Shown in pieces: positions 22,760 through 31,127 of a stretch of 31,127 nucleotides of DNA (its first letter is position 1; each line of letters opens with the position of its first letter). A program made the position numbers and the translations under genes. The notes beneath the pieces were generated by a model that was given only the letters and a program-made list of their open reading frames with translations, was not told the DNA's origin and did not search any database. Origin of the DNA: a virus; IMG/VR virus record IMGVR_UViG_3300015198_000006, positions 1 to 31,127 of that record, one strand, 5' to 3'.

Positions 22760-22930
22760 TTAGACCGTCATAAGTAAGGAACGTAACTGTAAAGGCGGAG
22801 GAATTAAATGACGAATATGCTCGAGTCGTACATGAGCGATTGTAGACGCATTGAAAGAGATATTGGGTAGACCTTCCCAAGAAAGTGCAACTGGCTTCAG
22901 GGCAGGCTTTATGCATTTACCGCGTGGCAT
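22760..22930 (-). CDS. Small basic protein (56 aa)
   Basis: ATG 22930 encodes MPRGKCIKPALKPVALSWEG and ends LRSLLMTV. It overlaps the end of the lysin candidate by 14 nt and precedes the ribbon-helix-helix gene by 2 nt. The basic N-terminus and hydrophobic C-terminal helix are visible; nothing identifies its role. Confidence 0.52.
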   Translation of the reverse strand: MPRGKCIKPALKPVALSWEGLPNISFNASTIAHVRLEHIRHLIPPPLQLRSLLMTV

Positions 22931-23291
22931 GGTGTGCATCCTTAGCGTCAATGTAAACGGTGATGATCCTACGGCCGAAGGCTTTGGCGTACTCTACGTC
23001 CTTCACTCTGAGATCGAGGTGGATGCGATCAGGATGGAGCTTGGCTTTGGTATCCAACGCACCTCCCCGATCGTCAACAATGAACGCCCGGTCAAATGCC
23101 CTGGCTCTGTCTAGTACGTCAATCCCTGCCGGGATATAGATGATCGTTCCAATAGAAATCTTACGATCGCATGCCAATCCATATGGCCGCTCATCCGTGC
23201 TAGTTCCATTGAACGTTATGTTGGTCGTCTGGCATACAGCACTGTTAGGTGCATAAGCGGTTACCTCAGCTTGGATAGGTATCAAGTCCAT
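22917..23291 (-). CDS. 3D (MltA/RlpA-type double-psi barrel) domain protein, endolysin candidate
   Basis: ATG 23291 (124 aa, MDLIPIQAEVTAYAPN) is used; GTG 23300 is an in-frame alternative and neither has a good SD. The pattern TAYAP ... GLACDRKISIGTIIYIPAG ... AFIVDDRGGALDTK ... DRIHLDLRV is that of the 3D domain, with the name-giving aspartates near residues 73-74, 80 and 93. This domain acts as a lytic transglycosylase-like peptidoglycan-cutting module. The whole protein is little more than the domain and has no signal peptide, so as a lysin it would need a holin. The placement away from the tail genes, next to packaging genes, is unusual. Confidence 0.8.
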   Translation of the reverse strand: MDLIPIQAEVTAYAPNSAVCQTTNITFNGTSTDERPYGLACDRKISIGTIIYIPAGIDVLDRARAFDRAFIVDDRGGALDTKAKLHPDRIHLDLRVKDVEYAKAFGRRIITVYIDAKDAHHATR

Positions 23292-23333
23292 TAATCGCAC
23301 ATGGTAAGGGGTGTTGGTGATAGGGCCATGGCA

Positions 23334-27522: not shown

Positions 27523-27556
27523 ACCCGGTCATTACCAACAGTGACCGGGTTTCTTT
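27523..27556 (+). terminator. Rho-independent terminator
   Basis: ACCCGGTCA (27523-27531) and TGACCGGGT (27542-27550) pair perfectly over 9 bp with a 10-nt loop, followed by TTCTTTA. It lies 8 nt past the 111-aa stop and separates the microgene operon from the amidoligase cassette. Confidence 0.85.
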
Positions 27557-27586: not shown

Positions 27587-28549
27587 ATGTTCATCGACTC
27601 ATCTCTTTTAATAAATGCACAGATCGTAAAAGCGGGCGCCGTCCGGCTCAATGGAGGAATTCAAACTGAAGCTGGATACGAATCGAATGCATTGTCCAAG
27701 ATGCCGACACCCGAGTTGCGGGAAGCACTCACCCACCAAATCCGTCCCAGCGACAGCACAATAGCTGCCATGGGCCGAGCAAAGAAGTTTATTCCATTTC
27801 GTGAACGGGAAATTGCACTGGAAGAAATAAATGGCTTTTGGTTCGGTGTCACTCGTGGGAAAAACAACAAAAACTCACGCTGGCTTACGAACATCATCTC
27901 AATCACGGACACGAACATTAATGTAATCACGGACCGAGATAATTGGTTAACTACTGGGATATTGAATCCGCGTAGTAAGCGTAATGCATTGCTTCTAACA
28001 ATGATTAACGTGAGTGAAAATCAAGTGAGTTGTCTTTGTAAAAATTGGAAGAAAGAATACATCGACTTTCCCACTGATTGGGATTGGATCTGTGGGCCAG
28101 ATGATGTGTTGCCTTTGACCGATGAATCGTCTCGGGTTGATTCACCTCAGGTTGAATCACCTCAGGTTGAATCAGTTGACCAAACATTGATTACACCTAC
28201 TGTTGTAGATGGTGTATGGCTAGGACAACCACTTGAATGTCGATTACAGACTGGCAGCTATGCAAATTTAATTAACCAAGATAATGTATTGCGTCAAATT
28301 CATGCACTGCGAAACAGTCCAGCTCGCGAATCAATCTTGGTTCCCGTGTATTCAAATGGGTTCTCAGTTGATTCAGGTTGTTATGGTGAACTAAGTGGAC
28401 ATCAAGTCTTGTCTAGACTACGTCCGAAATTACAGCACATCATTAGGCAGGTGTGCGTCACCTCAGGCAATCGAGAGGCCATCTTAGATTTAGTGATCCC
28501 ATACTTGCGCATGACTAGCGAAATCACCACAATTCCAATTCCATCTTAA
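27587..28549 (+). CDS. Two-domain protein of unknown function with 5-residue repeat linker (320 aa)
   Basis: MFIDSSLLINAQIVKAGAVR begins a domain to about residue 175 with a probable beta core (EINGFWFGVTRGKNNKNSRW, NALLLTMINVSENQVSCLCK). A linker at about 180-198 repeats the unit (D/E)S(P/S)(Q/R)V, and a second helical domain runs from about 205 to the end. Start is preceded by AAACGAGAACC. It heads the cassette that contains the amidoligase and amidotransferase, so it may be part of that system or its substrate; nothing in its sequence proves this. Confidence 0.7.
   Translation: MFIDSSLLINAQIVKAGAVRLNGGIQTEAGYESNALSKMPTPELREALTHQIRPSDSTIAAMGRAKKFIPFREREIALEEINGFWFGVTRGKNNKNSRWLTNIISITDTNINVITDRDNWLTTGILNPRSKRNALLLTMINVSENQVSCLCKNWKKEYIDFPTDWDWICGPDDVLPLTDESSRVDSPQVESPQVESVDQTLITPTVVDGVWLGQPLECRLQTGSYANLINQDNVLRQIHALRNSPARESILVPVYSNGFSVDSGCYGELSGHQVLSRLRPKLQHIIRQVCVTSGNREAILDLVIPYLRMTSEITTIPIPS
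28124..28168 (+). repeat. 15-nt tandem repeats in the 320-aa gene
   Basis: Three 15-nt units (28124-28138, 28139-28153, 28154-28168), the last two nearly identical with core TCACCTCAGGTTGA, and a partial fourth follow in frame. They encode the repeated (D/E)S(P/S)(Q/R)V linker and may vary in number between relatives by slippage. Confidence 0.75.
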
Positions 28550-28570
28550 CACAGAATTGAGAACCACATC

Positions 28571-28900
28571 ATGCCTCTTACAGCAGATATAACCTCAGAC
28601 ATTCCAGTCCCCTCACGTACAGCAGCTTCAACGGTACATAGAACGATGCGTGAGTTTGTGGCATACGTTCAGCAATACCATACATTGCCCGATATTCCAG
28701 TTGCATCGATCAACATCCAAGACGACGATTATCCATCTGGCTTAGTAATCACCGAAGATATGCCACTTGGGCAGGAGTGTTTCGATGTGCGTACGATCAG
28801 AGCCCTCACATCTCTCGTCGAGTTACACTGGACGGCAAAGTATATTACAGGGGGAACATCAAGAAGGCAGGCCTTCACACGTGTGAATTGTGTGGGATAA
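28571..28900 (+). CDS. 109-aa frame, probable N-terminal part of the amidoligase by frameshift
   Basis: MPLTADITSDIPVPSRTAAS has a clear ATG and SD-like TTGAGAACC. It overlaps the amidoligase frame by 124 nt; in the overlap the other frame (RVTLDGKVYYRGNIKKAGLH) is the more protein-like, while this one ends YITGGTSRRQAFTRVNCVG. The lower frame lacks a good start of its own. A single -1 (or +2) shift near 28,780-28,830 would make one protein of about 499 aa. It may instead be a separate small gene with translational coupling. Confidence 0.55.
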   Translation: MPLTADITSDIPVPSRTAASTVHRTMREFVAYVQQYHTLPDIPVASINIQDDDYPSGLVITEDMPLGQECFDVRTIRALTSLVELHWTAKYITGGTSRRQAFTRVNCVG

Positions 28901-30069
28901 CCTCTAATAAGCCAATCAATGTCGATTCACGAGGATTCTGCGACCGGTGTCGCGTCTCTAAGGCCAGCCCTAAGCAAGCGCCTCACATGGGTTGGATCGT
29001 TAGCCGTGCCAATGCCACGGACGTAAGCCCGACATTCGGGTTTGAGTTAGAGTTGGAAGCAATTCGCAACAGCAAATCGTACGACTCTCCGCAAACATAT
29101 GCCGAGGACGTCATTCGTAAGGTCGAGGGACATCCACCTATCGTTTCCACAACCGATTCCTCGCTTACTAACGGATGTGAGATGGTGTCACATCCACTCT
29201 CATACGATTGGATCAATGAGAATAACCACACGCTCGCAACCATGTTCAAGGAGTTGCGGAAAGATTTCCGTGCTGAAGACTACGGTGGCGAACACAAGGC
29301 ATCGTTTCACGTTCATGTGTCAAAAGAAATTTTCAATGATGCTCCTGAAATCACTACCCTACTAAACGTAGATTGGGTAAACTATCACTTCGACTTCCTC
29401 GTCGCACTCTCAGGTCGTCCATCTAGCAGCTTCAAGAAGTGGTGTACTGGTGGGTACAAATACATTGCACCACGCAATCAACAAAACACATGGGAGTGTC
29501 GTGGCTTCAGTAACCATGCTATCTTTGACCACGGTAAAGATCCCGACTTTGACGCATGCGAGGACATGATTCACATCTGCAATTGGATTCGTGCCATCGC
29601 ATGGATGACACATGACGTAAAGAGATTCGGGCTAAGTCCTGCCGACCTCATTGTGCAAGCTGGCTTTCCTGAATCACTATTGTGGGTTCGTGACTTTGAC
29701 GGCGCGGACCGTGCAAGTACTGAACTTGCTACCACTATGGAGCGCAAAGCCTGGGAATTACAGTGTAAAGCATATGGTTCACACATCAGTCGCTGCATTG
29801 TTCGTCTTCGTCCTGGCGGATCACTCGGTGGACCTGGGCTTCGAACAACTCAAGGTGCCTTTAACGCCCAAGGTTTGGCAGTAGCTCTCGAAAATTCCTC
29901 ACTGACTAATGGAGTGGAATTGACGCAAACCTTCAATGGCACAAATTCTATTCGTGCATGGGTAATGCCGCAACATCTTGAGATTGTCGAAGGAGTCCCT
30001 TTTCCCGGCGAGATTCCATCCATCGCATTTGTACCCTCAATCCCATCCACTAATTCAGAGGCTAGTTAA
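28777..30069 (+). CDS. Zinc-ribbon amidoligase (glutamine-synthetase-fold COOH-NH2 ligase), 430 aa as read
   Basis: A CELC-x15-CDRC zinc ribbon at residues 36-58 precedes a catalytic domain that matches the amidoligase pattern: FGFELELEA (metal-binding Glu about 90-94), TDSSLTNGCEMVSHPL (about 126-141), HVHVS (about 178-182), ECRGFSNH (about 240-247) and a second NSSLTNGVEL motif near the C-terminus. Family members join a carboxylate to an amine using ATP. Start GTG 28777 has GGAG only 1 nt upstream, which is too close; the true N-terminus may come from the 109-aa frame. Two bases separate it from the amidotransferase. Substrate unknown. Confidence 0.82.
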   Translation: MFRCAYDQSPHISRRVTLDGKVYYRGNIKKAGLHTCELCGITSNKPINVDSRGFCDRCRVSKASPKQAPHMGWIVSRANATDVSPTFGFELELEAIRNSKSYDSPQTYAEDVIRKVEGHPPIVSTTDSSLTNGCEMVSHPLSYDWINENNHTLATMFKELRKDFRAEDYGGEHKASFHVHVSKEIFNDAPEITTLLNVDWVNYHFDFLVALSGRPSSSFKKWCTGGYKYIAPRNQQNTWECRGFSNHAIFDHGKDPDFDACEDMIHICNWIRAIAWMTHDVKRFGLSPADLIVQAGFPESLLWVRDFDGADRASTELATTMERKAWELQCKAYGSHISRCIVRLRPGGSLGGPGLRTTQGAFNAQGLAVALENSSLTNGVELTQTFNGTNSIRAWVMPQHLEIVEGVPFPGEIPSIAFVPSIPSTNSEAS

Positions 30070-30071
30070 TC

Positions 30072-30971
30072 ATGTGCATCATCGTTCATCGACCAAAAGA
30101 ATCTACATTTCCATCACTCGAAGTACTGCAACGGTGTTGGCAAACCAATGCAGATGGTGCAGGATTCATGTATGCCAAATCTGGCAAACTCGTAGTCGCA
30201 AAGGGATTCATGACGTTTGAAGCGTTTATGGATGCATGCAAGACTATTCCTGAGGGTGTTCCAGCAACGTTGCACTTCCGCATCGGTACCCACGGTGGAA
30301 AGACTGCCGAGAACACGCATCCATGGCCTGTTGTTGAGAAAGATGGGGTGCTCAAGGTCGCTATGGTTCACAACGGAATTATTCATGGCTACGGCGATCG
30401 TGAGTATTCAGACTCAAGGGAATTCGCCGAGAATCTGGCACCATTCGGCATCCACGGACCATTCAACGAATCACTCAAGCGTCTGATTAATGGTGTCATT
30501 GGCAGCAACAAACTCGTGTTCATGCGTTCAGACGGCGAGACGATCATCTACAACGAAGCCCTTGGCATCAGCGAAGGAGGTTGTTGGTACTCCAACTCGA
30601 ACTTTCAGGCTTACATTGCTCCGGTCCAGCAAACGTGGAATACCACGCCATGGTCGTGGCAAGATCGATACGAAACACAGCTTGGAACAGCGATCATTGA
30701 GGGCAGTAAAAAAACAAAGACGCCTGTCCCTGAACAGGTGATTACCCCCAGTGATCAAGTTATTGGACTCCATCGGCACGGTAATGTCGTAAAGTTATCG
30801 CACCACAATGGTGTTCGAGGCTCAATTCCAATTAAGATGTTCCTAGCTCAATACAATGACTACGCGTATTCATCACATCTGTGCAAGCACATCGACAACA
30901 TGGTCTCTCAATGGGAACTTGATGTTGAGTGCGAAGAAGCACTGACTGCTGCTGACGACCTTACCCGATAA
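30072..30971 (+). CDS. Class II glutamine amidotransferase (Ntn hydrolase), 299 aa
   Basis: The protein begins Met-Cys (MCIIVHRPKE); removal of Met would expose catalytic Cys1. Family motifs follow: NADGAGFMYA (about 26-35), ATLHFRIGTHGG (about 65-76, with the conserved Arg and His-Gly) and VHNGII (about 99-104), then SDSREFAE. It releases ammonia from glutamine for a partner enzyme. There is no attached synthetase domain, and the adjacent amidoligase is the obvious partner. The start lies 2 nt after its stop codon. After about residue 220 the sequence is less conserved and may carry a docking region. Confidence 0.88.
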   Translation: MCIIVHRPKESTFPSLEVLQRCWQTNADGAGFMYAKSGKLVVAKGFMTFEAFMDACKTIPEGVPATLHFRIGTHGGKTAENTHPWPVVEKDGVLKVAMVHNGIIHGYGDREYSDSREFAENLAPFGIHGPFNESLKRLINGVIGSNKLVFMRSDGETIIYNEALGISEGGCWYSNSNFQAYIAPVQQTWNTTPWSWQDRYETQLGTAIIEGSKKTKTPVPEQVITPSDQVIGLHRHGNVVKLSHHNGVRGSIPIKMFLAQYNDYAYSSHLCKHIDNMVSQWELDVECEEALTAADDLTR

Positions 30972-30975
30972 ACCA

Positions 30976-30993
30976 TTTGACAATCCTGTCAAA
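30976..30993 (+). other. Inverted repeat TTTGACA/TGTCAAA between amidotransferase and ATPase genes
   Basis: A perfect 7-bp inverted repeat with a 4-nt spacer (TTTGACA-4-TGTCAAA) sits in the short gap before the ATPase gene, 20 nt upstream of its ATG. It could be a hairpin or a regulator-binding site. A similar TTGTCA/TGACAA dyad occurs at 24263-24279. Confidence 0.5.
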
Positions 30994-31012
30994 CCTTCTA
31001 AGAAAGAGAATC

Positions 31013-31127
31013 ATGCCATTTGACCTAACCTCCATCACCTCAGGTAAGAAACCTAAGCCCCCGATGGGTATCATCTACGGGGCGGGGAAGATCGGAAAAA
31101 CCACATTTGCATCACAAGCACCAAATC
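31013..31127 (+). CDS. P-loop ATPase, Sak4/RecA-like (N-terminal part, runs off window)
   Basis: MPFDLTSITSGKKPKPPMGI is followed by IYGAGKIGKTTF, a Walker A motif (about residues 23-30). This opening is common to phage AAA_24/Sak4-type single-strand annealing or recombination ATPases. Only 38 residues are visible, so the exact family is uncertain. SD-like AGAAAGAGAATC precedes the ATG. It is in line with the amidoligase cassette and marks the start of replication or recombination genes. Confidence 0.75.
   Translation, partial: MPFDLTSITSGKKPKPPMGIIYGAGKIGKTTFASQAPN

Follow-up and report, generated by a model that had tools for sequence, protein, structure and literature searches.

A minimal amidoligase and class II glutamine amidotransferase pair in a virus record, related to phage cassettes with a proposed role in peptidoglycan modification

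Introduction

Phages phiEco32 and LUZ24 carry a five-gene set comprising a gamma-glutamyl cyclotransferase (GGCT), an ATP-grasp ligase, a class II glutamine amidotransferase (GAT-II), an amidoligase and a COOH-NH2 ligase, which has been named the peptidoglycan modification cassette (PMC5498523, PMC11945000, PMC3890496). As quoted by these three papers, the proposal of peptidoglycan modification originates with Iyer and colleagues. More generally, phage amidoligase/GAT-II sets are predicted to act in peptidoglycan modification or superinfection exclusion (PMC10580990, PMC5498523, PMC11945000, PMC3890496), and a two-gene form without the ATP-grasp ligase is already known in phages (PMC10580990). 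Here we describe an amidoligase/GAT-II pair near the right end of IMG/VR virus record IMGVR_UViG_3300015198_000006, which was taken whole (31,127 b; referred to below as the window) and may be a fragment. An initial annotation made from the sequence alone had presented this pair as a candidate modification system of open status. Such sets have in fact already been described with a predicted role; its remark that the substrate is not established in phages stands, as the peptidoglycan role in the literature is a prediction.

Results

Comparison with described systems

By its sequence, the window pair is a minimal and distant new member of the known phage amidoligase/GAT-II cassette, grouping with gp105-gp106 of Mycobacterium phage Marvin and with the corresponding genes of the OM43 phages MEP401 and MEP402. 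As in the window, a zinc-binding amidoligase is immediately followed in these phages by a GAT-II of ~290–300 aa, with no ATP-grasp ligase. However, the GATs are only 27–41 % identical to that of the window and the amidoligases ~22–23 %, and the N-terminus of the OM43 amidoligases carries a long additional domain that the window protein lacks.

The amidoligase and GAT-II of the pair are homologous to those of the phiEco32/LUZ24 cassette and stand in the same order. The amidoligase profile matches phiEco32 gp84 (4e-8) and LUZ24 gp18 (1e-4), and a profile of the ATP-grasp ligases present at 54 related loci matches LUZ24 gp21 (3e-46) and phiEco32 gp80 (3e-52). In contrast to that cassette, the window holds the amidoligase and GAT-II, with no ATP-grasp ligase, GGCT or COOH-NH2 ligase found in this possibly fragmentary record; its GAT is 299 aa long as against 510–676 aa, and its amidoligase bears an N-terminal zinc ribbon. 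Genes missing from the record prove nothing, as it is possibly a fragment and stops 156 bases beyond the GAT. The phiEco32/LUZ24 cassette lies in the early region, beside primase/helicase.

Two cellular systems are comparable in principle. EgtA-EgtC of ergothioneine synthesis likewise combines a GCS-fold ligase with a hydrolase of the N-terminal nucleophile (Ntn) type having the GAT-II fold, but is distant in sequence, the EgtC model being matched by just 4 of 41 GAT relatives. MurT-GatD, which amidates peptidoglycan in S. aureus, differs in fold on both sides, being a Mur ligase with a class I amidotransferase. There a glutaminase feeds an ATP-dependent amide synthetase from a separate subunit (PMC3267633), as would happen in the window pair, which resembles MurT-GatD in principle and is not a member of it.

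Conservation of the pair

A scan of IMG/VR with a GAT profile returned 253 relatives, of which 80 were kept as loci, and a scan with an amidoligase alignment returned 31 loci. The amidoligase is directly 5′ of the GAT in 74 of the 80 GAT-anchored loci; reciprocally, the GAT is directly 3′ of the amidoligase in 28 of the 31 amidoligase-anchored loci, the other three being contig ends or fragments. Gaps between the two genes fall within ±20 nt in 105 of 110 cases (median −1), and no fusion of the two in a single open reading frame (ORF) was found among the IMG/VR loci. When 29 representative loci were compared (GATs <60 % identical), 25 had the amidoligase and 7 had the next commonest neighbour family. 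Because no other neighbour family recurs widely, the pair constitutes the entire conserved unit, and it travels together in dozens of otherwise unrelated phages, which bears out both the co-occurrence and the functional pairing of the enzymes suggested in the initial annotation. The exception to pair-only sharing across lineages is the ATP-grasp ligase, found at 54 loci and as a rule just 3′ of the GAT.

When bacterial and archaeal genomes were scanned once, with slightly modified patterns, no more than four loci emerged, and in these too the amidoligase was the upstream gene; the subtype therefore looks mainly viral. Hosts of the named relatives are both Gram-negative and Gram-positive and include Mycobacterium, Bifidobacterium, Methylophilales, Christensenellales, Stenotrophomonas and Rhizobium. 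The protein upstream of the GAT in Bifidobacterium phage BP677P8 is not matched by the amidoligase profile.

Divergence within the family is considerable. The window GAT is at most 44 % identical to any relative found and the amidoligase ~23 %. A first GAT alignment (A1) held no pattern conserved enough for scanning, and scans with the window amidoligase as a single protein gave no matches because the sequence diverges too fast; the alignment-based scan succeeded.

Six GAT-anchored loci have no amidoligase. Three are cut at their 5′ ends (L054, L061 and L075) and three lack it (L042, L044 and L084). The GATs of L042 (6001–6864) and L044 (6001–6864) are next to genes for thymidylate synthase and DHFR, and L084 (5310–8481) contains four tandem GAT copies with an adenylosuccinate-synthetase-like gene on one side and DHFR on the other. 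Other arrangements also occur: L092 (2163–6669) carries two amidoligase/GAT pairs in tandem, and in L098 (1173–6861) two amidoligases flank one GAT. A larger cluster in Stenotrophomonas phage StenR_269 (L007) comprises a GGCT-like gene, two different GAT-II genes, a gene annotated ‘L-glutamine synthetase’, an ATP-grasp ligase and an amidoligase, interspersed with tRNA genes.

The amidoligase

The first gene of the pair (28777–30069, + strand, GTG start) is predicted from its invariant motifs and from Foldseek and VIA-align comparisons to encode a PF12224-like amidoligase of the glutamine synthetase (GS)/GCS fold with an N-terminal zinc ribbon. Against PF12224 (Amidoligase_2) the window protein alone scores 16.2 bits, below the cut-off of 22, and its relatives 19.5 to 33 bits. 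In an alignment of the window protein with 42 IMG/VR amidoligases (43 sequences), all 12 invariant residues are kept in the window: G88, E92, D127, G133, E135, P140, H178, H180, R214, T238, E240 and R242.

The motifs that define the superfamily, namely GhExE, acidic residues on strands 2 and 3, [HD]x[NH], Ex[RK] and an arginine (PMC2588565), appear to be largely present. GhExE of core strand 1 corresponds to GFELE at 88–92 (predicted strand 86–95), its G and E92 being found in 43 of 43 sequences and E90 in 42. The acidic residues of strands 2 and 3 are the invariant D127 and E135 (predicted strands 122–126 and 133–138), and [HD]x[NH] of strand 4 is the invariant H178-V-H180 (predicted strand 176–182). 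For Ex[RK]x2D of strand 6, E240-x-R242 is invariant, and the following Asp is absent in the window (ECRGFS) and in its relatives. R214, in the loop before strand 5, is invariant, and the strand-5 position is R in 36 of 43 sequences and K in 6, including K228 of the window. To judge from these residues the amidoligase is catalytically intact.

A four-cysteine zinc ribbon (C36, C39, C55 and C58) precedes the catalytic domain, as the initial annotation had recognized, and is kept in most relatives. The suggestion made there, that the ribbon may bring the enzyme to a partner that is a nucleic acid or a protein, is hypothetical. The N-termini of the amidoligases of L096, L097, L100, L105 and L111 contain up to 10 CxxC motifs in LIM/treble-clef-like arrays, compared with the single ribbon of the window.

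Structure searches covered the PDB. The best Foldseek match of the AlphaFold2 amidoligase model was YbdK/GCS2 (1r8g, E 1.6e-3, probability 1.00), with glutamine synthetases next. All 50 VIA-align rows belonged to the GS superfamily, the best having Z 9.4 over 183 residues (root-mean-square deviation 4.1). The window protein thus resembles the Amidoligase_2 and GCS2/PafA/GS superfamily in fold and in nearly all motifs, but differs in scoring below the Pfam cut-off when taken alone and in being partnered with a stand-alone class II glutaminase.

The amidotransferase

The second gene (30072–30971, + strand) begins 2 nt after the end of the amidoligase at 30069, the spacing originally reported. 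Its product is a class II glutamine amidotransferase of 299 aa, a predicted Ntn-type glutaminase in which Cys2 would be the nucleophile once Met is removed. Residues C2, H68, R70, P84, H100-N101-G102, D114, S174 and N175 are invariant (n=41). They include the features typical of class II enzymes, namely a Cys right behind the initiator Met, HxR (H68/R70), the HNG oxyanion motif (100–102) and a conserved Asp (D114). Catalytic residues are therefore retained in both enzymes of the pair; their loss had been named at the outset as evidence that would count against such a system. The window GAT alone scores 13.4 bits against GATase_6, where the cut-off is 27, and matches the glmS NCBIfam model at 9.1e-7; among the 41 GAT members, the glmS glutaminase is matched by 37, GATase_4 by 31 and the EgtC model by 4. 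The structural model has a predicted local distance difference test score (pLDDT) >90 over most of residues 1–180, and its best folds are the GlmS glutaminase, then PurF and EgtC. Despite the sub-threshold Pfam scores, the family assignments of both enzymes are secure because of the invariant motifs, the glmS matches and the GS-fold and GlmS-fold models. The window has no robust position in a GAT-domain tree, where no starred set includes it.

The start of the amidoligase gene

The start of the amidoligase at 28777 is probably misplaced. A 109-aa ORF on the + strand (28571–28900), overlooked at that stage, starts with ATG at 28571 and overlaps the amidoligase in another frame; profile searches gave it no family match of its own. 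In a codon-usage scan trained on the window’s own genes, the best frame is that of the 109-aa ORF until ~28790 and that of the amidoligase after ~28830. As codon usage upstream favours the 109-aa ORF frame, the GTG at 28777 is a poor start. Additionally, the catalytic domain of relatives is immediately preceded by a ‘DGxxY ... CxxC’ stretch, the counterpart of which in the window is LDGKVYYRGNIKKAGLHTCELC, in the amidoligase frame from ~28828. The amidoligase N-terminus is thus probably encoded by the first ~75 codons of the 109-aa ORF, with the protein starting at 28571. A frame change near 28790–28820 is likely, whether as a sequencing error, a true frameshift or a programmed shift, and leaves the catalytic domain untouched.

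Genomic context

The structural genes of the record (terminase, portal, major head and tail spike) form a block that reads leftward; after it comes a block of small genes that reads rightward. The end of the rightward block, all on the + strand, runs from a hairpin through a 320-aa ORF, the amidoligase and the GAT-II to the start of an AAA_24 ATPase gene, every coordinate of which had been correctly reported. The intrinsic-terminator-like hairpin (27523–27550, + strand, 11-bp stem) lies upstream of the 320-aa ORF: a 51-nt stretch of this region folds at −19 kcal/mol (z −5.0), and none of 200 shuffles was equally good.

The 320-aa ORF (27587–28549, + strand) is directly 5′ of the pair region. 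It had been proposed as a third cassette gene, but no relative was found by tblastn against the phage collection, by the IMG/VR scan, by blastp or in the fetched neighbourhoods, so that we reject this role and place the orphan outside the conserved unit. An in-frame direct repeat (CAGGTTGAATCACCT-like) at 28137–28180 encodes the linker DSPQVESPQVES of this protein. On the other side, the P-loop ATPase considered part of the cassette is an AAA_24 fragment, of which the first 38 codons (31013–31127, + strand) precede the record end that cuts the gene (PF13479, E=5e-4 over 23 residues); it too is rejected, as no such neighbour recurs.

Elsewhere in the window, 22917–23300 on the − strand gives a weak 3D domain match (PF06725, E=0.002) and may encode a protein that lyses the cell wall. 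It is flanked by the terminase region and the right arm.

Discussion

The reading we favour, tentatively and at a little under even confidence, is that the pair forms a glutamine-dependent, two-subunit amide-forming enzyme whose likely target is a soluble peptidoglycan precursor. The class II amidotransferase would hydrolyse glutamine at its N-terminal cysteine and release ammonia, and the GS-fold amidoligase, with ATP and Mg, would convert a substrate carboxylate to an acyl phosphate; attack on this intermediate by ammonia (or a small amine) would give an amide. The fold, the catalytic residues, the conserved pairing and the homology to the phiEco32/LUZ24 cassette are computed results; from the production of one glutaminase-like protein and one ATP-dependent ligase by touching genes, we infer the transfer of ammonia onto an activated carboxylate. 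The N-terminal zinc ribbon would probably aid in binding the substrate or a partner. Expression of the pair is probably early, given its location among replication-type genes. The most likely target would be a soluble peptidoglycan precursor peptide in the host cytoplasm, at an isoglutamate or diaminopimelate carboxylate, and the effect would be an altered wall of the infected cell. Wall precursors fit the breadth of hosts and the sharing of the cassette, and a peptidoglycan target is, here and in the literature, only proposed.

Several observations weigh against this reading. Both the COOH-NH2 ligase and GGCT complete the cassette that underlies the wall hypothesis, yet in a search of 49 IMG/VR records the former was absent from all and the latter from 48, the window being among these 48. 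Position 233 of the amidoligase, almost invariably Asn (42 of 43), is occupied by Arg in the window, and the amidoligase model is of moderate confidence (mean pLDDT 60; core 70–87). No phage member was found to have been tested biochemically or genetically. Members of the same GAT clade that have no amidoligase adjoin thymidylate synthase, DHFR or adenylosuccinate synthetase (purA-like) genes, which hints at a nucleotide-linked use of the same glutaminase. Finally, glutaminases and gamma-glutamyl hydrolases that share this fold cannot be told apart by sequence.

This last point, together with two relatives in which the GAT is fused to a GGCT, makes gamma-glutamyl chemistry the strongest rival. 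The ligase would use the side-chain carboxylate of glutamate or another amino acid to couple it to an amine, and the product would be cut or trimmed by the Ntn protein acting as a gamma-glutamyl hydrolase, in the manner of EgtA/EgtC. The fusions, to a C-terminal GGCT, are in L009 (6001–7218) and L011 (6001–6897), with PF06094 at 7.5e-18 and 2.7e-21, respectively, and both have an upstream amidoligase bearing the family motifs. GGCT genes have also been noted as neighbours of the amidoligase family (PMC2588565); YbdK/GCS2 is the top Foldseek match of the amidoligase, EgtC is among the fold matches of the GAT, and GATase_4 is found in most of its members. We nevertheless consider this explanation unlikely, the preponderance of glmS over EgtC matches and the near absence of GGCT from the records standing against it.

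Protein tagging or modification is improbable. In this reading, proteins of the host or the phage would be recruited by the zinc ribbons, and the ligase would amidate their side chains or add amino acids to them as Pup ligase does. The N-terminal arrays of some amidoligases, LIM/RING-like with up to 10 CxxC motifs, would suit it, as would a RimK-like ATP-grasp ligase as third gene at 54 loci and the presence of Dop and PafA among the amidoligase fold matches. However, GS-fold enzymes all match about equally well, the neighbourhood comparison revealed no conserved Pup-like small partner beside the pair, and the amidoligase family has been argued to be without one (PMC2588565).

Modification of a nucleotide or DNA base, with ammonia added to a base precursor, is likewise hard to credit. 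A precedent exists in phage 9g, where a GAT-QueC enzyme is part of the deoxyarchaeosine pathway (PMC5567051); the pair lies by replication genes in MEP401/MEP402 and LUZ24, and the GATs without amidoligase lie next to thyA, DHFR and purA-like genes. Yet thymidylate synthase is confined to two contigs without an amidoligase, and the substrates of amidoligases are carboxylates, which are not found in ordinary bases. QueC occurs in none of 51 records, and a QueC-type DNA modification is rejected on that ground.

An auxiliary role in nitrogen metabolism, by which the pair would aid ammonia assimilation into amino acids for the host, was put forward for a Planctomycetes strain ZRK32 phage whose addition raised growth on nitrate or ammonium (PMC10945688), but is very improbable: the growth effect was not linked to the pair, glutamine is consumed by a glutaminase with no gain of nitrogen, and zinc ribbons and GGCT fusions are left unexplained.

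Returning to amide formation on a wall precursor, the role usually quoted for these genes, wall modification or superinfection exclusion, has comparative genomics as its sole basis. With just two genes, the present form is the most compact one and the simplest to express and assay, and makes the old wall proposal directly testable. As the pair is the sole thing common to dozens of unrelated phages of Gram-negative and Gram-positive hosts, it probably serves one useful function in many hosts. We know of no characterised precedent for a class II glutaminase feeding a GS-fold amidoligase. It is possible, though we hold it with some doubt, that this is an unprecedented enzyme type with which very diverse phages amidate one shared host target. 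If so, two-gene ‘wall (or protein) amidation’ would be one of the commoner unexplained functions of phages.

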